Assembly (NCBI GenBank): GCA_014859655.1
Contig: JACUTT010000020.1
Location: 1-38,145 of the forward strand
Reading direction: 5' to 3'
Origin: Campylobacterales bacterium
Lineage (GTDB): Bacteria; Campylobacterota; Campylobacteria; Campylobacterales; Sulfurimonadaceae
Length of the DNA: 38,145 nt
The first letter of the stretch is position 1. Each line of letters starts with the position of its first letter. Below are positions 1,307 to 14,462 of the stretch, one piece after another. The notes beneath the pieces are model-generated. The model had not been told where the DNA came from. It ran no database searches and saw only the letters and a program-made list of their open reading frames with translations. The translations under genes and the position numbers were made by a program.

Positions 1307-2503
1307 ATGAGCAAGATGTTTTTAGCGCGCCAAAAGATCGTCAATATCAACGGAAAGATCTTTGCCTATGAACTGCTTTTTCGTGACAGCAGTACGGGAA
1401 TCAAAAAACTTCCCTCAGACATCAAGGCCACCGCGCAGGTGATGCTGAACAGTTTGTCACATATCGATCTGGATGGATTGCTCACAAAAGAGGGTATCGC
1501 TTTTATCAATGTTGACAGCGAGATCATTGAATCCGATGTTTTAGAACTTCTCGATCCCAAACGTTTTGTTATCGAAATACTCGAAACTGTCCAGCTCACC
1601 TCTGCTCTGTATAATAAAATAGTCTCTTTGAAAAAGAAGGGCTACAAGATCGCTCTGGATGATTTCGACTGCAGTGAAGAGATGCTGAAAAACTTTCAAC
1701 CGCTTCTCAAATACCTGAACGTCATCAAAATCGATGCCCTCACCGTCAACAAAGACAATCTCAAAAAGCTCCTTCCTAAATTCAAGGCAGCGGGCATCAA
1801 ACTTCTGATCGAAAAAATAGAGAACCCCAAAGAGTATCTTTACTACAAAGAGCTCGGCTTTGACCTTTTTCAAGGCTACCATATCGGCAGGCCGGAGTCA
1901 TTCGAGTTTGAATCCATTCAAGACCCCATAGAAGTGATCATACTCAAACTTATCTCCATCATCAAAACTGACAAAGAGACGGCAGAGATAGAGAGGTTCA
2001 TAAAACTTCGTCCCGACCTCGCCTACAATATCATCAAGTTTATCAACAATCAGAACACGACAAAGGAGAGGATCTCTTCTATTGTTCAAGCCGTCACACT
2101 GATGGGAAGGGACTCGCTTCTGCGCTGGCTGCTGGTCTACCTCTATGCGGAAGTCTCCGGCAATGAGTTTTCAAAACCCCTTTTGCATGCAGCAGTCTTG
2201 CGGGCAGAGACGATGGAGGAGTCCGCAAGCAGAGGAAATAAAGAGGAAGCCTTTATGGTCGGGATGTTTTCGATGCTCGACTCGCTCTTCAAGGTTCAAA
2301 TCAAAGATATTTTCAAAGGACTGAACCTCTCCCCTGCGGTCACTAATGCACTTTTGTATAAGACAGGCGAGTTGGGAAAAGGGCTGACGGAAGCGATTCA
2401 GATAGAAAAAGATTATTTCAAAAAGGTCTTTTTGGCCAATTTCAACAAGATCAATCCCGCCGATATCATTATCGCCTTTGAAAACAACGATATTGACTAC
2501 TAA
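1307..2503 (+). CDS. EAL-HDOD domain signalling protein (YuxH/CdgJ type)
   Basis: 398 residues with an N-terminal EAL domain (about 1-195) and a C-terminal HDOD domain (about 200-390), the architecture of YuxH/CdgJ proteins that link cyclic-di-GMP to motility or other outputs. The EAL signature is degenerate (ELL at 22-24), but several residues that bind metal or substrate in active phosphodiesterases appear kept: Glu22, Asn68, Glu90, the Asp pair 118-119 in LDDFD, and Lys141 in IKID. FQGYHIGRP closes the EAL fold. Many EAL-HDOD proteins are thought to act as binding or scaffold proteins rather than enzymes, so activity is open. The ribosome site is weak (AAGG about 10 bases upstream). Its TAA stop overlaps the TAG stop of the convergent fusion gene. 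Confidence 0.88.
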   Translation: MSKMFLARQKIVNINGKIFAYELLFRDSSTGIKKLPSDIKATAQVMLNSLSHIDLDGLLTKEGIAFINVDSEIIESDVLELLDPKRFVIEILETVQLTSALYNKIVSLKKKGYKIALDDFDCSEEMLKNFQPLLKYLNVIKIDALTVNKDNLKKLLPKFKAAGIKLLIEKIENPKEYLYYKELGFDLFQGYHIGRPESFEFESIQDPIEVIILKLISIIKTDKETAEIERFIKLRPDLAYNIIKFINNQNTTKERISSIVQAVTLMGRDSLLRWLLVYLYAEVSGNEFSKPLLHAAVLRAETMEESASRGNKEEAFMVGMFSMLDSLFKVQIKDIFKGLNLSPAVTNALLYKTGELGKGLTEAIQIEKDYFKKVFLANFNKINPADIIIAFENNDIDY

Positions 2504-5500
2504 AGAGCACCTCTTTTAGGATTAGCCCTGTAAAGATAAAGATAGCCATCCTTGTCGAGATACCCCCTGTCATGTGTCTTATGCCAGCAAATACCCGCTA
2601 TCTCCATAGTTTCTTCGGCGCTCTTTGGCGCCTCCTTGAGGTAGCTCTTCATCACCTGCGCCCCGCCGATCAAAACCAGCCCCTCTTCGTCACAGCCAAG
2701 CTCGCGCAGGCTTTGGGGGTCTACGATCTTGAAGGCCGTACCCGGAAGCGGCAGACCAACACTCCCCTCTTTTTGTCCGACCTGAAGACCAAGACCCTTT
2801 GCATCGAGGACATCAGGCAGATTGACACTCGCCACCAAAGCGCATTCGCTCATACCGTAACCCTCAAGCAGCTCCTTGTGAAACTTCATCCGGAAAGCCT
2901 TTTTGAGCTCGGGAGTGAGCATCTCTCCTGTTATAGCAATGCGCAGGCTCTTAAACATCTCTGGGTGCACTTTCTCGTTTTTGACGCAGAGTCTGAAAAA
3001 AGCGGAGCTTCCAAGCAGGAGCGTTGCCCTGTGTTTTTCTGCCGCCCTGCCGATGCCTGCCACATCTTTCGGATCGCCATGGCAGACCATCGGGATGCCT
3101 TCTACCAGCGGCAAAAGTATCGTGACCGTCAGGCCAAAGGGATTATAAAGCGGAAGCGAAGCCAACACGACATCCTCATGGCGCATATTAAAGAGTTCCG
3201 AGAGCTGTTTGATGTTGGCCATAAGGTTCTTGTGCGTCAGCATCACCCCTTTTGGCTCCTCCGTTGAGTCTGAAGCAATGAGGATTGCTACGACTTCCTC
3301 ATTGGAGACTCTTTTTAGATACAGAAGCTTCAGGAAAAAAGCAGGTAGGAGTCTAACCGCCAGCAGGGCAAGCAGCCTCTTAAACTGGGGAATACTCGCT
3401 TTTAGTTCTTCAAGATAGACGAGCTCGCACCCGTGCAAAAGCGCCTTTGTATCACACCCCTTGGCCTCAAGGCTTTCCATGAATGCTCTTGTACTATAGA
3501 GCGTTTTTATCTCCGCTTTTTGCATAGCAGATGCGAGAAGGCTGATGGGAAGCGTATAGTTTAGATTTAGCACCGTTTTTCCCGCCATAAGTACGGCTAT
3601 CATCGCCATGGCGCCCGCGGAACTTGTCGGCATCAAGATGGCGATATTTTGCTCCTCGTGCTTTTTGATTGAGGCGGAAAGCAAAATAGTATGCGTCAAT
3701 GCCCTTAGATAAGTAAAACTCTCCTCTTTGGAGTCGGCTATGCAGAACTTTCCGCGAAGACGGCAGGCCGTCTCTACCCAGGCTTCAGCGAGCGTCGCAA
3801 GACCCTTCGCATGTTCCGCCCAGGCGCTATAAGAGAGTTCAAAGACCTTCTGCTTGACGGCTGTCGCACGGCTTCCGATGGCCATAGGCTCTCCAAAGGC
3901 GACGATCACCTCACGTTTGCCGCTCTTTCTGGCCTCTTTAAACCTGGCTGAGGAGCGTGATAGGCGGCTTCCCCACATTCCGCGCAGGTAAAAAGGGAGG
4001 ATGTGCGCGGCGGCATCTTTGGCCATAAACTCAAAACCGCGGCGAAACTCCCCCATCTGGGCATTCCGGCTGATAGCGCCTTCTGGAAAGATACAGACGA
4101 CTTCGCCCCGGTTCAAGAGTTCCTTGACCCTCTGCGTAGCCTCTTTGACGCTTTTCGGCGAGACGGGAACGACATGGAAAAAGTCCAAAAAAAGTCGGAG
4201 ATACCACTTCTCGTAGATCTGCCTGTCCATCACAAAACGCACCCGCCGCGGCACTGCCATCTGAACGATCGCCCAGTCAAGCCAGGAGATGTGGTTGCCA
4301 AGCAGTAGGACACCGCCGTTTTGAGGGATATTGTCAAAGCCGATCACCTCGAGTTTTACACGCCGTGCTATCAGTGAAGAGAGCAGAAAGATCACCATCG
4401 ACTGCGGAAGGTGGCGCAGGACATAGGCCGAACCCAGCAGCGCAACAGCGAGCATCAGGTAAAAAAGTCCGATGCTTCCCATGCCAGCAACCGCAAAAAG
4501 CACCGTCAGGGTCAAGAAGCAGAGCATGCCGACATTTTGAATAAAGTTGTTTCCCGCCAGTACAAGGCCTAGTTCATGCTCTTTGGAGCTAAACTGGATC
4601 AGCGCATTCAGGGGTACGACAAAGAGTCCCGCAAAAAATCCGAAGGCAAAGAAGTTGAAGGCGTGAAAAAGCGGCTCCTCCAGAACGACAAGCAGCAAAA
4701 GCGATACGCTGATGCCCAAGGCACCCAGAGGAATAGTGCCCGTCTCGATATAGTTTCTGGATGCTTTTCCCGAGACGAGCGAACCGATGACGATCCCGAT
4801 GCCCGCCAGCGCCATCATCCCCTGGACCAGGACCGTGTTGCTCATGCCCAGCACCTCTTTGGCGTGTGCTGGAAAGCTGGCCAGCACCACCTGGGAGACG
4901 GACCAGAAGAGGCTCAGGCCGATGATAGAATACAGTATCGTGCTGTTTTCAAAGAGGATGGCCATATTTTTTTTGAGGTAGGCTCCGGTGTAATATTTTT
5001 TAATATCAAAGACGATATCGCTGCACACCTTCGTGTCGGGGATCTTGTAGGCAAGCAGAAGTTCAAGCAGCGAGCCCAGGACCAAGACCCAGCCTACAGG
5101 CGCGATATGACGCAGGATATCCCCGCTGTCACGGTAGGTCTGCTCGAACAAAAGACCCTCAAAAAAGAGCGAATAGATGACAATACCGCCCAGAATCGCC
5201 ACCATCGTCACCGCCTGAACGATGCCGTTGCCAAGGGTGAGGAAGCGCTGGCCCACAAGCTCCTTGATGTAGCCGTATTTTGCGGGCGAATAGATAGCCG
5301 ACTGGGCCGCCAGAACAAAGGTGAGGAAAAATGCAAATTCAAAGGCGCCGATAGTGTAGGCATAGGTGATGCCCAGCGTTACAGCTACCGCTGCCCAGGC
5401 CGAGAGGCGCATCACCCTGTTCTTGGCAAATCTGTCCGAGAGAAAGCCCGAGGGCGTAAAAAGAAGGATAAAAGGAAGTAGGACAAGAGCGTTGACGACA

Positions 5501-5658
5501 GCCGTCAAAATGATCTGCGTCTGGCCGTCGTAGATCTTGAAGATCGTGTTCTGGATGATGATCTTATGACCCAAATCCGTAAACGCGTTTAAAAAAACGA
5601 CCGTCACATAGGGCAAAAGCCCCGCAATAGACCAAATGGAGTTACTCTTAGAGCGCAT
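2500..5658 (-). CDS. MFS transporter / PlsC acyltransferase / AMP-binding fusion (LplT-Aas-like)
   Basis: A 1052-residue inner-membrane protein with three parts. Residues 1-400 resemble an MFS lysophospholipid flippase (LplT-like). Residues 430-620 are a PlsC-type acyltransferase with the HX4D motif (His456, Asp461) and FPEG (Glu526). Residues 640-1052 are an AMP-binding acyl-ACP synthetase-like domain ending in GYLDKDGYLYLY. E. coli encodes LplT and Aas as separate proteins that import and re-acylate lysophospholipids, so this one chain could do both. Two oddities: the adenylate P-loop reads DSTEEPKGV instead of the Gly/Ser-rich TSGSTGxPKG form, and the protein stops about 80-100 residues early, without the C-terminal subdomain that carries the catalytic lysine. 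The synthetase part may be weak or non-catalytic. AGAGGA lies upstream of the ATG. Confidence 0.88.
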   Translation of the reverse strand: MRSKSNSIWSIAGLLPYVTVVFLNAFTDLGHKIIIQNTIFKIYDGQTQIILTAVVNALVLLPFILLFTPSGFLSDRFAKNRVMRLSAWAAVAVTLGITYAYTIGAFEFAFFLTFVLAAQSAIYSPAKYGYIKELVGQRFLTLGNGIVQAVTMVAILGGIVIYSLFFEGLLFEQTYRDSGDILRHIAPVGWVLVLGSLLELLLAYKIPDTKVCSDIVFDIKKYYTGAYLKKNMAILFENSTILYSIIGLSLFWSVSQVVLASFPAHAKEVLGMSNTVLVQGMMALAGIGIVIGSLVSGKASRNYIETGTIPLGALGISVSLLLLVVLEEPLFHAFNFFAFGFFAGLFVVPLNALIQFSSKEHELGLVLAGNNFIQNVGMLCFLTLTVLFAVAGMGSIGLFYLMLAVALLGSAYVLRHLPQSMVIFLLSSLIARRVKLEVIGFDNIPQNGGVLLLGNHISWLDWAIVQMAVPRRVRFVMDRQIYEKWYLRLFLDFFHVVPVSPKSVKEATQRVKELLNRGEVVCIFPEGAISRNAQMGEFRRGFEFMAKDAAAHILPFYLRGMWGSRLSRSSARFKEARKSGKREVIVAFGEPMAIGSRATAVKQKVFELSYSAWAEHAKGLATLAEAWVETACRLRGKFCIADSKEESFTYLRALTHTILLSASIKKHEEQNIAILMPTSSAGAMAMIAVLMAGKTVLNLNYTLPISLLASAMQKAEIKTLYSTRAFMESLEAKGCDTKALLHGCELVYLEELKASIPQFKRLLALLAVRLLPAFFLKLLYLKRVSNEEVVAILIASDSTEEPKGVMLTHKNLMANIKQLSELFNMRHEDVVLASLPLYNPFGLTVTILLPLVEGIPMVCHGDPKDVAGIGRAAEKHRATLLLGSSAFFRLCVKNEKVHPEMFKSLRIAITGEMLTPELKKAFRMKFHKELLEGYGMSECALVASVNLPDVLDAKGLGLQVGQKEGSVGLPLPGTAFKIVDPQSLRELGCDEEGLVLIGGAQVMKSYLKEAPKSAEETMEIAGICWHKTHDRGYLDKDGYLYLYRANPKRGAL

Positions 5659-7190: not shown

Positions 7191-7577
7191 ATGACAATCG
7201 AACTTCTGCTCTTTATTCTTTTTATCGCTGCCGAGCTCTTTGAGATGCTCTGGCAAAAGTCGCAGACCCTTTTGCAGATGCTCGAAAAGATCTACAGCTA
7301 CTACCAAAGAAGTCCCTACCTGCTCTACCTGATGCATCCGAGCTATATCTTTTCGCTCTATCTCCTCTTCATCAGCGACTTCAGCCTATGGATAGCGGCG
7401 ATCGTGGCGATCAAGAGCCTTGACATCGTTTTCAAAATCCTCCTGATCCATAAACATTTTGTGCAGCATGAACTGAGTGAGGAGATGGAGCTGATCCTTG
7501 CACAGCGCCTGCACCCTTTCATACTCTCTGCAGGGCTCTTCTTCTACCCCTTTTTGCTTTTTCAGGCACTGTTTTAG
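7191..7577 (+). CDS. Small integral membrane protein of unknown function
   Basis: 128 residues with about three to four hydrophobic helices (residues 1-18, 48-65, 66-83 and 108-127) and basic/polar loops containing LLIHKHFVQHEL. I do not recognise a family with certainty. The length and codon use look like those of the neighbouring real genes. It starts 39 bases from the divergent RraB-like gene, with a TATGAT only 5 bases before the ATG and no ribosome site, so the mRNA may be leaderless or start differently. It ends just before the Fur-box-like promoter of the porin gene, with which it is unlikely to be co-regulated. Confidence 0.7.
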   Translation: MTIELLLFILFIAAELFEMLWQKSQTLLQMLEKIYSYYQRSPYLLYLMHPSYIFSLYLLFISDFSLWIAAIVAIKSLDIVFKILLIHKHFVQHELSEEMELILAQRLHPFILSAGLFFYPFLLFQALF

Positions 7578-7615: not shown

Positions 7616-7644
7616 TTGACATTGATAATAGATATCAGTATTAT
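7616..7644 (+). promoter_or_regulatory. Sigma70-type promoter of the porin gene
   Basis: A perfect -35 TTGACA (7616-7621) is separated by 17 bases from a -10 TATTAT (7639-7644). It is the strongest canonical promoter noticed in the window. The start codon of the porin follows about 30 bases after the -10, with AAAAAGGG as ribosome site. Confidence 0.8.
7623..7637. promoter_or_regulatory. Fur-box-like palindrome 2
   Basis: TGATAATAGATATCA matches 13 of 15 bases of the 7-1-7 Fur consensus and fills the spacer between the -35 and -10 boxes of the porin promoter. It starts 28 bases after palindrome 1, so the two sites would lie on nearly the same side of the helix. Confidence 0.68.
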
Positions 7645-7674: not shown

Positions 7675-8994
7675 ATGAAAAAAATAGCACTTTCCCTAGG
7701 GGTAGCTACGGCTATCGGCTCAACGCTTTTTGCAGATACACAGACGGATGAACTCAAAGCGCAGTTAAAACTGATGAGCGAGCGTTTAAGCACGCTTGAG
7801 CAGCAAAACAAAGAGACCGAAGAGAAGACAAATATTCTTATCGATGAGACCGCCGATCTGAAAACCGGCTTTAATTTCAATGTGGTCGACAGCGACAAGT
7901 CGCACAACGGCCTGGGCGCCGCAGCGTCCAAGGTCTACTACTCAAAATCGCCGCTCTCCATCGGGGGATATGGCGAGATGTACTATGCCGCGCCGGACAA
8001 TGGAGACAATTTTGCGGATATCTACCGTTTTGTTCCCTACATCGGCTACCGTTTCAGCGACAATATCATCCTGAACGTCGAGCTTGAGATCGAACACGGC
8101 AGCACGGATGGCGGCACGGTTGGAAGTGACGATAAGGTTTCGGGCGGCGGCAAGTTCGTTGTCGAGTTTATGTACCTTGACTTCTTGATCGATCCTGCCT
8201 TTAACCTTCAAGTCGGTCATCTTCTTGTACCGATGGGCTTGACCAACCTCCGCCATGAGCCAACACTCTTCAACACCGTCCAGCGTCCCGAGACGGAGCG
8301 ACAGATCATTCCTTCCACATGGCATGAGAACGGGATCATGGCCTACGGAACCCTGGGCGAGAGCGGCCTGAGTTATAACCTCGGTTTTGTCAATGCGATC
8401 GACTATACGGTTAACTCTCCAGCGACAACGACAACGCGAGACGGACGCATCGGCTCAGAAAGAGACGGGACGATGAACCGCGTCGCCGGTGTGGGACGTT
8501 TGGACTATGAGGGCCTCGCCGGGCTTCTTGTCGGAGGATCGCTCTATTACGGTGACGCGGCGCAAGGCAAGGTCAGCGGCGCTTCGGCTTTTACTTATGA
8601 GCTACACGGGGTCTATGAGAACTCCGGCTTCAAGTTCAAGGGGCTCTACGCTGAGACTAATGTCAATGGCCTTAATGAGAACGGCGCCTACCCCGAAGCA
8701 CTCAAAAAAGCATCGGGCTACTATGTGAATGCGGAGTATGACCTCTTAAACCAGATGAATTCAGAGTACCGGCTGCCGCTCTTTGTGCAATATGACACGC
8801 ACAACAAAAAGCAGACCCTGGCCAGTGCAGCCGATCCCGAGGCCAAAGAGAGCGTGACCACCGTCGGTCTCAACTTCTTCCCGCATGAGCAGGTCGTACT
8901 GAAGCTTGACTATGCGATGAAAGCGTATGAGAAGCAAACAGAAACAATCAAAGATTTCAACACCCTCAGTGTCAGCCTGGGCTTCATCTTCTAA
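7675..8994 (+). CDS. Outer-membrane porin with N-terminal coiled coil, probably iron-regulated
   Basis: 439 residues. A Sec signal peptide (MKKIALSLGVATAIGSTLFA, cut before DTQ) is followed by a short coiled coil (about 25-58, ELKAQLKLMSERLSTLEQQN) and a long beta-rich region of alternating aromatic and polar strands, such as YGEMYYAA and YRFVPYIGYRFS. It ends in an aromatic beta-signal (SLGFIF). This layout suits trimeric DcaP/OprO-like porins whose coiled coil sits in the periplasm. The frame is open upstream to 7594, but the ATG at 7675 is chosen because it begins the signal peptide, has AAAAAGGG upstream and lies after the promoter. Two Fur-box-like sites over the promoter suggest induction in iron limitation. 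The solute is unknown; an iron chelate is a guess from regulation. Confidence 0.87.
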   Translation: MKKIALSLGVATAIGSTLFADTQTDELKAQLKLMSERLSTLEQQNKETEEKTNILIDETADLKTGFNFNVVDSDKSHNGLGAAASKVYYSKSPLSIGGYGEMYYAAPDNGDNFADIYRFVPYIGYRFSDNIILNVELEIEHGSTDGGTVGSDDKVSGGGKFVVEFMYLDFLIDPAFNLQVGHLLVPMGLTNLRHEPTLFNTVQRPETERQIIPSTWHENGIMAYGTLGESGLSYNLGFVNAIDYTVNSPATTTTRDGRIGSERDGTMNRVAGVGRLDYEGLAGLLVGGSLYYGDAAQGKVSGASAFTYELHGVYENSGFKFKGLYAETNVNGLNENGAYPEALKKASGYYVNAEYDLLNQMNSEYRLPLFVQYDTHNKKQTLASAADPEAKESVTTVGLNFFPHEQVVLKLDYAMKAYEKQTETIKDFNTLSVSLGFIF

Positions 8995-9057: not shown

Positions 9058-9579
9058 ATGAAATTTATAATTTTTCTTGCCGCCGCTTTGAGCCTGCACG
9101 CACAGCTCCTTCTCTCCCCTTTTGATGCTATGGCGCTGAACTACGGCGAGGGCGCCGAGGTAAAACAAAAGAACATCATGCTCTCCAAGGCAAAGGCGAG
9201 TGAGGTGAGCAGACTTTCGCAGGTAAAGCTCGACACCAACATCTACAAGATCTACAGCGCGACAAAAGGGGATGAACTTCTGGGCTACGGGGTTCTGGTC
9301 ATGCAAAAAGTCCGCAGCAAAGATGCCGCCGTTCTCTCCCTCATATCGCCCGAGGGAGAGCTCAAGGGCATCGAGATCATCGCCTTCAACGAGCCGCCCG
9401 AGTACATTCCTTCAAAAAACTGGACTGAGCTCTTCAAAGGCCTCCGATTAAGCGAGCAGCTGGTCTTGGGAAAAGATATTCCCACGATCTCCGGCTCCAC
9501 CCTCTCCGCACGTTCAGCCACAAAGGCCGCACGCGTTGCACTCGCTATCTATGAGATTGAGCTCAAACAACAGCCATGA
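9058..9579 (+). CDS. Exported FMN-binding domain protein, likely ApbE substrate
   Basis: 173 residues with a short signal-like N-terminus (MKFIIFLAAALSLHAQ) and a domain like the FMN-binding domain of NqrC, RnfG and NosR. ApbE attaches FMN by a phosphoester bond to the Thr of an SGAT-type motif; here the motif is S145-G-S-T148-L-S, so Thr148 is the predicted site, with Ala changed to Ser. Other family-like stretches are LLGYGVLVMQKVRSKD and LKGIEIIAFNEPPEYI. The protein should carry electrons on the outer face of the cytoplasmic membrane. Its stop overlaps the ATG of the next gene by 4 bases (ATGA), and an apbE gene lies convergently 0.8 kb downstream, supporting covalent flavinylation. The electron donor and acceptor are unknown. 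Confidence 0.83.
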   Translation: MKFIIFLAAALSLHAQLLLSPFDAMALNYGEGAEVKQKNIMLSKAKASEVSRLSQVKLDTNIYKIYSATKGDELLGYGVLVMQKVRSKDAAVLSLISPEGELKGIEIIAFNEPPEYIPSKNWTELFKGLRLSEQLVLGKDIPTISGSTLSARSATKAARVALAIYEIELKQQP

Positions 9580-10055
9580 AGTTTCTCGTCTCTAAAAACC
9601 TCCATGCCAACCCCAACTATACTCTTCTGCTTGGCTTTTTTGCGGTGATGCTGCTGCTCTATTTTGCAGGCGATCTTTTCTATCTTGCCAACTTTTTCGG
9701 CCATACTCCGCTAGCTGTTTTGCAGACGCTTAGAGGAGATCTTGATGCCTTTGTGGAGCCCTTGAGCCTTGCAAGCCTGCTGGAGCATCTGCATGTCTCT
9801 CTTTTTTTGGCGATCCTGGCCATCTTTACGACTATGGCCATCGTTTTGCGCCTGAACCTTCAGTTTAGACACAAACAGTTGCTTATTTTGGTGAGCATGA
9901 GCTCTCTTTTTTTAGCCTCGCTCAGCCTTTTGGGAACCTACTTCTTTTGTGACGCGCTGGTCTATGCCTATCTTTTTTTTACGCTTCTATGGCATCTTGG
10001 CGCTAGTTACGCTTTGGCGCTCATCCTCTTTGAGCTCTGGGTCAAAAAAGCGTGA
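9576..10055 (+). CDS. Four-helix membrane protein A of flavin operon
   Basis: 159 residues with four predicted membrane helices (about 16-35, 72-92, 101-120 and 127-154). No known family is recognised. It is paralogous to the next protein: T44-P45, G54-D55, LLE at 68-70, KQLLI at 100-104 and S117-x-L-G-x4-C125 recur there at matching spacing. His71, His73 and His140 lie in or next to helices and might bind heme, though this is speculative. It is translationally coupled (ATGA) to the FMN-binding gene and GTGA-coupled to its paralogue, so the three form one operon. A role as the membrane part of a transmembrane electron-transfer module is inferred from context. Confidence 0.78.
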   Translation: MKFLVSKNLHANPNYTLLLGFFAVMLLLYFAGDLFYLANFFGHTPLAVLQTLRGDLDAFVEPLSLASLLEHLHVSLFLAILAIFTTMAIVLRLNLQFRHKQLLILVSMSSLFLASLSLLGTYFFCDALVYAYLFFTLLWHLGASYALALILFELWVKKA

Positions 10056-10513
10056 TCTCTCCGCGCCTCTTTAAACTTCTGCTCTTTTTTGCCCTGGGGC
10101 TGATTTCTCTGCAGCTTCTCAGCGGCATCTGGCTCTTTATCGAGAAGTACGGGCTGACTCCGGGCGAGGTCTATCTCTATTTTGCAGGCGACGAAGCAAA
10201 CTTTATCATGGCCAAAAGTGTTGAGGGCTTGCTGGAGACAGCGGTACCGCACTTTGTCGCGGTCTCTGCGACCATCTTCGTTTATGCGCACTTTTTGCTC
10301 TTTACCAAGGAGATCTCGGAAAAAAGAAAACAGCTGCTCATCTTTGGACTCTTCCTTACCGCGCTTATTGATATCTTCTCGCCCCTTGGCATCCTTTACG
10401 GCTGCGAACTCTTCGCCTGGCTCAAAGTCCTCTCCTTCTGGGGCTTTGAAATCTTAATGGGAGTGCTTCTATATATGCTTTTTTCTCTCTACCTTCTTCA
10501 AAAAAGAGCCTGA
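10052..10513 (+). CDS. Four-helix membrane protein B of flavin operon (paralogue of A)
   Basis: 153 residues starting at a GTG that overlaps the TGA of protein A. Four helices are predicted (about 8-30, 65-84, 95-113 and 122-149). It shares with protein A the blocks T36-P37, G46-D47, LLE at 60-62, KQLLI at 93-97 and S110-x-L-G-x4-C118, and the 30-residue stretch before the second helix aligns without gaps with about 11 identities. Tandem duplication with retention of both copies suggests a heterodimer in the membrane. The single conserved Cys and nearby His residues (His67, His80) are candidates for metal or heme contact. Its 3' end overlaps the convergent apbE by 92 bases. Confidence 0.75.
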   Translation: MISPRLFKLLLFFALGLISLQLLSGIWLFIEKYGLTPGEVYLYFAGDEANFIMAKSVEGLLETAVPHFVAVSATIFVYAHFLLFTKEISEKRKQLLIFGLFLTALIDIFSPLGILYGCELFAWLKVLSFWGFEILMGVLLYMLFSLYLLQKRA

Positions 10514-11447
10514 ACTCTCGGCTCAAACCTCTGAAAGCCCCATTGATATAGACTTTTTTGTCGTTGGTGAGGATCAGATACCCCACTTTTCTCAGCCCAT
10601 CTAAAAAACGCAGCGCCTTTTCCTTGGGCATCACCGAAGCCGCCGTCGCGTAGGCATCGAGGTCGCTGTTGCCAAGATGCGCGCTTAACAGGGTTATGGA
10701 GGCGAACTCTTGCTGCGAAGAGTGAGTTTTAGGGTTGATGAGATGGTTATACTCCCTGCTCTTGACAAAACGGCGGTAGTTTCCGCTGGTGGAGATGGCC
10801 GTGTTGTGTTGCGCCATCATAAAGCTTGCCAAAATATTCTCCGAAAAGGGGTCCTGCACGGCCATCTCGCACGCATGCAGACAGAAGATATCCCCGCTCA
10901 GCGCGACGATGCCCTTTTTTACCCCCTGGGCACGCAGAAGTTCGGCCGCCTTGTCTACCCCAAAACCCTTCCCCATTCCCCCAAGATCGACCACTATCCC
11001 CTCATCGCTCCAGGCCCACTCTTCGTTGAAGTGCAGCCCCTTGAAGTTCACAGCGGCCTTTTTGAGTTCATTTGCATGCGGAACCCTCTCCGCCTCGCCA
11101 AAGTGAAAAAGTCCCCTGGTAATGGAGCCCACAGTGATGTCAAAATAGCCCTGCGTCTCTTTGTAATAGCGCGAACAAAGCCTCAAAGCCTCGTAAGTGT
11201 CGCGCGAGATAGAGACTTCATGGTCGCGGTTGAGCCGGTAGATCTCGGCCGAAGGGTCGTAGGAGGAGAGAGAGAGCTCCACTTCTTTTAGACGCGCAAA
11301 GAGTGAGTTGGAGAGCGCGGTCTGCTCTTTGGGCAGACTGATGGAGGCATAAGTTCCCATCATCACCTGTGTTCGCGCAACAAGCCCCTCGGCCTGCGCT
11401 GCTATAGCAAGAAAGAGGAGTCCGAATATACCGCTTTTCTTCAGCAT
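10422..11447 (-). CDS. apbE: FAD:protein FMN transferase ApbE
   Basis: 341 residues with a signal peptide (MLKKSGIFGLLFLAIAAQA), so it acts outside the cytoplasm. ApbE splits FAD and moves FMN onto a Thr or Ser of target proteins in a Mg-dependent reaction. Family motifs in order: MGTYASISL near 30, FDITVGSITRG, DLGGMGKGFGVDKAAELL, IVALSGDIF, ISTSGNYRRF, HLINPKTHSS, and LGNSDLDAYATAASV, which includes the metal-binding Asp and Thr region. The closest target visible is the FMN-binding protein at 9058. Its ATG abuts the TAG of the upstream coiled-coil gene, so the two are probably co-transcribed. The C-terminal 30 codons overlap the convergent membrane gene. Confidence 0.94.
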   Translation of the reverse strand: MLKKSGIFGLLFLAIAAQAEGLVARTQVMMGTYASISLPKEQTALSNSLFARLKEVELSLSSYDPSAEIYRLNRDHEVSISRDTYEALRLCSRYYKETQGYFDITVGSITRGLFHFGEAERVPHANELKKAAVNFKGLHFNEEWAWSDEGIVVDLGGMGKGFGVDKAAELLRAQGVKKGIVALSGDIFCLHACEMAVQDPFSENILASFMMAQHNTAISTSGNYRRFVKSREYNHLINPKTHSSQQEFASITLLSAHLGNSDLDAYATAASVMPKEKALRFLDGLRKVGYLILTNDKKVYINGAFRGLSREFRLFFEEGREKKAYIEALPLRFQSPRRRGL

Positions 11448-12734: not shown

Positions 12735-14462
12735 TTAGATATGCAGCTTGTGATGAAAATGTTTGTCGATATCAAAATAGATTTCACCGCTTCTGTCTTT
12801 GAAAGTGAGGTGGGATTTGTTGAGCTCTTTGATGCTTTTTATCCCCATAATTGCCAGCAGCACCTTCATACTTTTGACAAGGTTCTTATGATAGTTTCCT
12901 ATCTCTTTACCCTTTTTAACGACAAGGTATGAGGCTCTTTTCTTTGGATCTTGCGTCGCCATTCCCACCGGACAGACGTGCGAGCCGAAGCCTGAGCACA
13001 TGCGTGCACGGATGCAGCCGCCGCTCATCATAAAACCCCGGGCGATACCGATAGCGTCCGCGCCCATGCACATTGTGATGACAGCATCGTCGGGCGTAAG
13101 GATCTTGCCGCTGGAAATGATCTTGATGTCCCCGCGCAGCTTCTGCCTTCGCAGCATCGTATCGAGGACATAGAGTGCGTTGTTGGTCGTCAGTCCGACG
13201 GACTCCATCATCTCAAGCGGGGCCGTTGCACTTCCGCCCTCCCCGCTGTCCACGGTGATAAAATCGGGGATATTTCGGCCGGATTCTTTTCGCAAGGCGA
13301 TCTCTTTGGCCATCTCTTCTACGGCATTTGCATCCGAAACAACGATCTTGAAACCGACCGGTTTTTGTGAGAGTTCTTGCAGCTTTTCAACAAAATCAAG
13401 CAGCTGCGCCGTCGAGTCGGCATAAGGAAAGCGGTTGGGAGAGAAGAGATCTTTGCCCTCCGGTACGCCCCGGTAGTAGGCAACATCGGCATTAACCTTG
13501 CCCGCAGAGAGCTTGCCGCCCGTCTGCTTTGCCCCCTGGGCGATCTTGATCTCCGTCATCTTGCAAAACCGCATCACTTTTTGGTATTTGAGCGGATCGA
13601 ACTTCCCCTGCTCGTCCCTGACCCCGTAAAGCCCTGAGCCCATTTGGAAGATGATGTTGGGGATATCGCTCGGCACTTCTTTAGGAAAGGCCTCCAGCGG
13701 CGCCTTCCAGTTGACGCGAAAGAGGACATGCGAGATCGTGTCGTAGATGTAGGTGTTCTGCGTTTTTTTGTTGAGCAGGATCGTGCGGTACCATTTCAGC
13801 GCGACCGCATGGTTGAAAAAGAGACTCACCGTTTTATAGGCCGCCTCTGCAAAAAAAGTACTTTTAACGATCTCAAGATAATCGCAGTCATTTAGGTTTG
13901 GCTTGTGGGTAAAAAGGTGGTTGGAAGTTAGCGAACCCTCGCCCGTATTTATCGTCAGCTGTGAGGCAGCGCCGGCTATAGAAAAGGCGCGTACTGCCTC
14001 AGGAGAAAGCGAGCCGTCACTCATGGCAGAGCGGATAATGGGCGTATGCGAGACAAAGGGGATCTCCCGGTCTTGTCCGAATACGACCGATAGATCCTCG
14101 CTGACCTCGTCGTCATTGAGCACACTCGAGGCATGTTTGAGGATAAAACGCGAACCAGAAAAGGGCTGGTTGACGGAGAAGGACTGATAGTTGGGCACAT
14201 CTTTTGCCGCCTTGTAGACCCAGTCGACCTTGTCCTTTGACTCGTAAAAGGTCTCCTCCGCGAAATACTGGCGAAGCGGCTCACGCAGGGCCTCAAAAAG
14301 ATAGCGCATCCGCCCGATCACGGGGTAGTTGATGAGCAGAGAGTGTTTCCTCTGGATAAACTTGTCATAGACAAAGGTAAACAGAAGCACCAAAAACAGA
14401 ACCAAGATAAAAAACTCGGCAAAGTCTGCAAACAGTTCCCACGTGCTGTGAATAAATGCCAT
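12735..14462 (-). CDS. Membrane-anchored glutamate synthase domain (FMN-binding GltS-like) protein
   Basis: 575 residues with one N-terminal membrane helix (about 14-32) and then a TIM-barrel domain of the ferredoxin-type glutamate synthase family. Landmarks are TINTGEGSLTSNHL (FMN side), IKIAQGAKQTGGKL, DFITVDSGEGGSATAP, GDIKIISSGKI and a cysteine cluster CIRARMCSGFGSHVCPVGMATQDP that resembles the 3Fe-4S loop. Glutamine amidotransferase and GXGXG domains are absent, so it is the stand-alone family whose reaction is not well established. AAAGGGAG lies before the ATG. It is the same strand as the helicase upstream, but a 204-base gap separates them. Confidence 0.9.
   Translation of the reverse strand: MAFIHSTWELFADFAEFFILVLFLVLLFTFVYDKFIQRKHSLLINYPVIGRMRYLFEALREPLRQYFAEETFYESKDKVDWVYKAAKDVPNYQSFSVNQPFSGSRFILKHASSVLNDDEVSEDLSVVFGQDREIPFVSHTPIIRSAMSDGSLSPEAVRAFSIAGAASQLTINTGEGSLTSNHLFTHKPNLNDCDYLEIVKSTFFAEAAYKTVSLFFNHAVALKWYRTILLNKKTQNTYIYDTISHVLFRVNWKAPLEAFPKEVPSDIPNIIFQMGSGLYGVRDEQGKFDPLKYQKVMRFCKMTEIKIAQGAKQTGGKLSAGKVNADVAYYRGVPEGKDLFSPNRFPYADSTAQLLDFVEKLQELSQKPVGFKIVVSDANAVEEMAKEIALRKESGRNIPDFITVDSGEGGSATAPLEMMESVGLTTNNALYVLDTMLRRQKLRGDIKIISSGKILTPDDAVITMCMGADAIGIARGFMMSGGCIRARMCSGFGSHVCPVGMATQDPKKRASYLVVKKGKEIGNYHKNLVKSMKVLLAIMGIKSIKELNKSHLTFKDRSGEIYFDIDKHFHHKLHI

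Follow-up and report, generated by a model that had tools for sequence, protein, structure and literature searches.

A putative trans-envelope electron-transfer module of a flavinylated carrier, a porin and two membrane proteins resembling a split cytochrome b in Sulfurimonas-like Campylobacterota

In the published surveys of flavinylation-linked systems, the classes of membrane components include NapH-, MsrQ- and PepSY-like proteins, DsbD, Nqr/Rnf and DUF4405 (Meheust 2021, PMC8238504; 2024 preprint, PMC10979944). In the DUF4405, PepSY-like and MsrQ-like cytochromes, conserved intramembrane histidines are, by prediction or by experiment, ligands of heme b (PMC8238504, PMC10979944). For DUF4405, which is found in apbE clusters and has four central conserved histidines, the binding of heme b has been shown (PMC10979944).

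Here we analyse a locus in the genome (2.17 Mb, 99.6% complete) of a Campylobacterales bacterium, the relatives of which are Sulfurimonas-like Campylobacterota. The window, i.e., the whole stretch of DNA that was analysed, is a contig of 38,145 nucleotides (C66). A preliminary description had placed in it genes for an FMN-binding protein, two membrane proteins (TM1 and TM2) and ApbE, and all four open reading frames are found where it placed them. Together with the porin gene and a candidate promoter, the features are as follows.

7616 to 7644, + strand: candidate promoter of the operon, sigma-70-like, TTGACA-17-TATTAT (11/12 in a consensus scan, a pattern match only)
7675 to 8994, + strand: outer-membrane porin (Porin_O_P, PF07396, 1.4e-6; AF2 model; Foldseek)
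9058 to 9579, + strand: exported FMN_bind flavoprotein, predicted FMN carrier (PF04205 near the threshold; RnfG-like, 5e-5)
9576 to 10055, + strand: TM1, four-helix inner-membrane protein (histidine conservation; paralogue of TM2; no Pfam match)
10052 to 10513, + strand: TM2, four-helix inner-membrane protein (histidine conservation; no Pfam match)
10422 to 11447, − strand: ApbE, exported FAD:protein FMN transferase (PF02424, 2.4e-58)

The claimed coupling of the three genes is seen in both overlaps, with the stop of the FMN gene and the start of TM1 sharing ATGA (9576-9579) and the stop of TM1 and the start of TM2 sharing GTGA (10052-10055). The apbE gene is convergent, as had also been claimed, and overlaps TM2 tail to tail by 92 nt (10422-10513); overlapping 3' ends recur in 33 of the 53 relatives that have both genes. 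A gap of 63 bases separates the 3' end of the porin gene from the FMN gene, and the sigma-70-like promoter lies 5' of the porin. Elsewhere in the window, a hydrophobic open reading frame of 128 residues upstream of the porin (7191-7577), having no Pfam match, has a counterpart at this place in none but the closest relatives (L014, L017, L062 and L069); 2500-5658 encodes a protein of 1052 residues in which MFS, acyltransferase and AMP-binding domains are fused; and two genes beyond apbE there is a glutamate-synthase-domain protein (12735-14462; PF01645, 6.8e-61) with an N-terminal hydrophobic segment.

The gene order porin-FMN-TM1-TM2, in most cases with a convergent apbE after it, recurs in Sulfurimonas and its relatives in a scan of 75 loci that were found via the FMN protein, the counts being for the Campylobacterota loci with enough flank. 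TM1 lies beside the FMN gene in 58 of 60 such loci and TM2 in 55 of 59, with two more having a short unmatched open reading frame at the place of TM2, so the association of the three genes is no matter of chance. Because the locus sample was itself found with the FMN protein, the converse searches matter: with TM1 or its natural fusion to TM2 (see below) as the query, an FMN gene is present at every locus examined (30/30, 30/30 and 20/20). TM1 occurs in 38 of the 397 Campylobacterota genomes sampled; its matches in L012 and L013 were rejected as chance ones, having internal stops and other genes at those places. The co-occurrence with apbE across genomes, on which the preliminary description had staked its proposal, is strong: in 46 of 50 Campylobacterota loci apbE is no more than 4 kb away from the FMN gene, and in Aquificota ApbE is present in 46 of the 50 genomes with a TM1-TM2 fusion versus 7 of the 20 without it (Fisher p=2e-6, which is optimistic because Aquificota genomes are related). 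ApbE, porin and FMN genes are also adjacent, without the membrane pair, in Planctomycetota and Myxococcaceae (L079, L080, L081, L082, L084 and L087), and at L085 (3137-5452) a single open reading frame appears to have an ApbE-like N-terminus followed by the porin, which may be a fusion or a run-on frame.

ApbE is full-length, the match to PF02424 covering profile positions 1-259 of 266, and its N-terminus, as that of the FMN_bind protein, reads as signal-peptide-like. The FMN_bind protein of the window scores 21.4 bits against PF04205 (cut-off 22) by hmmscan and passes the curated cut-off in the whole-genome search with 22.6 bits, while orthologues reach 25.6 and 27.6 bits, over the cut-off. 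Its Thr148 (codon 9499-9501) sits in PTISGSTLSA, where the SGST variant of the flavinylation motif had correctly been recognised (ISGSTLSA). In the family the Thr is conserved in 91 of 91 sequences and the motif Gly in 90 of 91, [ST]GAT occurs in 83 of 92, and the motif is P-x-x-[ST]-G-A-T. Compared with the canonical ApbE substrate motif, D-x-x-[S/T]-G-A-[S/T] with Thr as the acceptor, position −6 is thus mostly Pro instead of Asp, and the window protein departs twice, with Pro for Asp at −6 and Ser for Ala at −1. In a model substrate the change of Asp to Ala has a minor effect and that of Ala to Val leaves about 50% of the activity (review, PMC12052999), and because such motif changes are minor or cost about half of the activity, it is still likely, as predicted from the sequence, that Thr148 is flavinylated with FMN. 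Since the genome has a single FMN_bind match and a single copy of ApbE, and DUF2271 and DUF3570 were not found in the genome search, the FMN_bind protein is the only evident substrate of ApbE. The porin, considered as another substrate, was rejected, [ST]GA[ST] being present in few members and at varying positions.

The two membrane proteins had been taken for a paralogous four-helix pair, and this holds: they are true paralogues by hhalign (97.3%, E 1.8e-11), each consists mostly of hydrophobic helices, and the model of the fusion gives four helices per protein. In about 50 Aquificota genomes TM1 and TM2 form a single protein of 300-320 residues adjoining the flavoprotein, and from this natural fusion a physical complex is therefore implied. 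The AlphaFold model of the fusion (pLDDT 91.5, pTM 0.88) has eight long helices as two sets of four, in both of which the first helix is followed by a short additional one; judged by hydrophobicity and charge, the topology would be N-in with acidic periplasmic loops. No Pfam family was found for TM1 or TM2; the NapH-, MsrQ- and PepSY-like, DsbD, Nqr/Rnf and DUF4405 classes give no Pfam match at E<=1 for the window pair, nor at E<=0.1 for 55 TM2 and 46 fusion proteins. Profile searches of the PDB with TM1, TM2 and the fusion gave no credible relative, and homology to a characterised transporter, the other point on which the preliminary description had staked itself, was not found by the family and structure searches.

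It was also stated at first that no cytochromes are present. This is probably wrong, as the pair has three invariant and one near-invariant intramembrane histidines and c-type cytochrome genes are present in some relatives. In TM1, H73 (9792-9794), within E70-x-x-H73, is conserved in 82 of 82 sequences and H140 (9993-9995) in 76 of 81, the latter position being Gln or Asn in Aquificota and a few others. In TM2, H67 (10250-10252) and H80 (10289-10291), both on helix 2, are each conserved in 77 of 77 and are the only invariant columns among 55 aligned sequences. When 46 natural fusions are aligned, the equivalents of H73, H67 and H80 are invariant, with position 140 being mostly Gln. H73 and H67 lie at roughly equivalent places, on helix 2 near the periplasmic side, and H80 lies 13 residues further towards the cytoplasm. 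The pair has, then, conserved intramembrane histidines of the kind that serve as ligands in membrane cytochromes b in general, and this pattern suggests that the invariant histidines of TM1 and TM2 bind heme b. Heme b is the best reading because conserved intramembrane histidines led in the same way to DUF4405, for which heme b was then shown. Note also that two bis-His hemes are not required, because only three histidines are strictly invariant and position 140 of TM1 is Gln or Asn in some proteins.

Further redox proteins are encoded in relatives. Six Sulfurimonas-type loci have a pentaheme cytochrome gene placed between TM2 and apbE. Of 20 Aquificota regions, six encode a diheme protein that in most cases carries a lipobox-like signal; its gene separates the porin and FMN genes in five of them and adjoins the porin in the other. 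This Aquificota diheme c-type family (proteins of 540-660 aa, the majority of which begin with a lipobox-like sequence, beside the porin as at L174:6381-8006 and L189:7977-9959) has no Pfam or NCBIfam match. Imelysin and DHOR genes are present in L045, L048, L057 and L071, the last having also an MbnH-like di-heme enzyme; at L045 (1178-5831) imelysin, DHOR di-haem oxidoreductase and fatty-acid-hydroxylase-like genes lie beside the module and are followed by a porin gene.

We propose a model in which the locus encodes a trans-envelope electron-transfer module composed of a split cytochrome b-like pair, a covalent-FMN carrier and a porin, a reading that we favour with modest confidence. In the model, TM1 and TM2 would form one pseudo-symmetric eight-helix inner-membrane complex, which would bind heme b via the invariant helix-2 histidines and take electrons from, or give them to, the quinone pool. 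Once flavinylated at Thr148 by the adjacent ApbE, the FMN_bind protein in the periplasm would ferry electrons across this compartment, and the porin would be the outer-membrane end, either as a docking site for the flavoprotein or for a lipoprotein cytochrome, or as an entry for a small acceptor or a metal. The c-type cytochrome or di-heme oxidoreductase encoded in some relatives would there be the downstream partner. The model takes directly from the sequences the set of genes and its conservation, the paralogy and the natural fusion of TM1 and TM2, the invariant histidines and the association with apbE. To these we add by inference heme b, covalent FMN in vivo, the direction of the electrons and the acceptor, with the outward direction from quinol being assumed; no electron acceptor is encoded nearby in the window. 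Several points count against the trans-envelope module: no cytosolic electron donor is encoded, no sequence or structure relative with known heme-binding function was established for the pair, the flavinylation motif departs from the canonical one at −6 (no Asp) and at −1 (Ser in place of Ala), the Planctomycetota and Myxococcaceae loci lack the membrane pair, and 8 of 53 loci have no porin directly 5' of the FMN gene.

The porin, in its AF2 model (pLDDT 82.8), has a signal peptide, a coiled-coil helix and a 16-stranded barrel, and Foldseek relates it to general porins and OprP (1e-13 to 1e-12). The locus had been described as a minimal three-gene operon; the flavinylation module with its membrane pair stands, and the porin, which is directly upstream of the FMN gene in 45 of 53 Campylobacterota loci, had been omitted from it. 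Read from gene order, the porin is part of the unit with FMN, TM1 and TM2. That it is an ordinary solute porin, which shares the promoter and has no role in the unit, is less likely than not, and would be compatible with the module otherwise. The resemblance to a general 16-strand porin and the want of a conserved flavinylation motif are consistent with such a bystander, while its adjacency in the Campylobacterota loci, its presence in 15 of 20 Aquificota regions and its retention in the Planctomycetota and Myxococcaceae loci that have only ApbE and FMN besides argue against it.

Another reading is the assimilation of iron or other metals, in which the membrane pair would feed the flavoprotein and the latter would reduce ferric iron entering via the porin, for uptake and not for respiration. 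At L045, L048, L057 and L071 imelysin-family, DHOR and fatty-acid-hydroxylase-like genes lie beside the porin and/or FMN genes, and flavinylation is linked to iron uptake in other systems that the survey treats (PMC8238504). By contrast, the module has no adjacent iron transporter or imelysin gene in the window and in most relatives, L048 and L071 lack the membrane pair, and the rest of the neighbourhood is housekeeping; we regard iron assimilation as rather unlikely.

It is likewise unlikely, in our estimate, that the covalent-FMN protein binds inside the porin or at its surface and that electrons exit the cell through such a flavin-based trans-outer-membrane conduit. If it is true, Sulfurimonas-type and Aquificota bacteria would be capable of extracellular electron transfer while lacking a classical porin-cytochrome complex, which could bear on the reduction of solid Mn(IV) by Sulfurimonas. 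Sulfurimonas reportedly uses solid Mn(IV); in the MAG examined no complete porin-cytochrome set was found, and an 'undetected porin' was suggested (PMC11748539). The module is a candidate for this Mn(IV) reduction.

It is improbable that the membrane pair is not redox-active and instead exports FAD or otherwise supplies ApbE for loading the periplasmic flavoprotein. Periplasmic ApbE requires exported FAD, for which Listeria uses a dedicated ECF transporter (PMC9973259); however, translational coupling links the pair with the FMN gene and not with apbE, its most conserved positions are intramembrane histidines, which is unusual in a nucleotide exporter, and no transporter family matched. The heme A synthase CtaA has an architecture of two sets of four helices. 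That the pair has this CtaA/COX15 fold and modifies or handles heme, with the flavoprotein as the reductant, is very improbable: CtaA (6a2j) is the top Foldseek match of the fusion (E 0.38, prob 0.41, the rest being helical-bundle background) and shares the 2x4 pseudo-symmetry and, in the CtaA sequences compared, the ExxH of TM1 helix 2, but the fold match is weak (VIA Z 5.4 for 124 aligned residues in the N half, within the helical-bundle background), there is no profile similarity (hhalign 0.1% or less, with a CtaA profile of only four sequences), and PF02628 never matches the window pair, the 55 TM2 or the 46 fusion proteins.

With the trans-envelope module, flavinylation-based electron transfer would gain an undescribed membrane component that is tied to the outer membrane and conserved in two chemolithotroph-rich phyla, which include sulfur- and hydrogen-oxidising bacteria. 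Moreover, the module provides a concrete gene set for the question of the route by which electrons get through the envelope to acceptors in the periplasm or outside the cell in the absence of a standard conduit. Literature searches on FMN-binding proteins or ApbE with Sulfurimonas, porin or Aquificae found no description of this system; such clusters may stand, unnamed, in the supplementary tables of the 2021 survey. Within the libraries searched, the module is apparently an undescribed variant of flavinylation-based extracytoplasmic electron transfer.

Finally, we compare the module with the known systems. As the preliminary description had maintained, it does not match Nqr, Rnf or Nos: the FMN_bind protein weakly resembles RnfG (5e-5), whereas the membrane proteins are unrelated to those of Rnf/Nqr by profile search and no other Rnf/Nqr subunits (B/D/E/F) are among the neighbouring window genes scanned. 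With the Mtr/Pcc conduits it shares an outer-membrane barrel, a periplasmic redox carrier and an inner-membrane quinol-side component, as well as lipoprotein cytochromes in some relatives. The Mtr barrel is a large conduit barrel; by contrast, here the barrel is a general 16-strand porin and the carrier a flavoprotein, with no multiheme cytochrome in the window. As with the DUF4405, PepSY-like and MsrQ-like cytochromes, the membrane genes adjoin apbE and a flavinylated protein and encode conserved intramembrane histidines, while here there is no detectable sequence similarity to them, the membrane component consists of two four-helix paralogues or their fusion, in both halves most of the histidines lie on helix 2, and the operon includes a porin.
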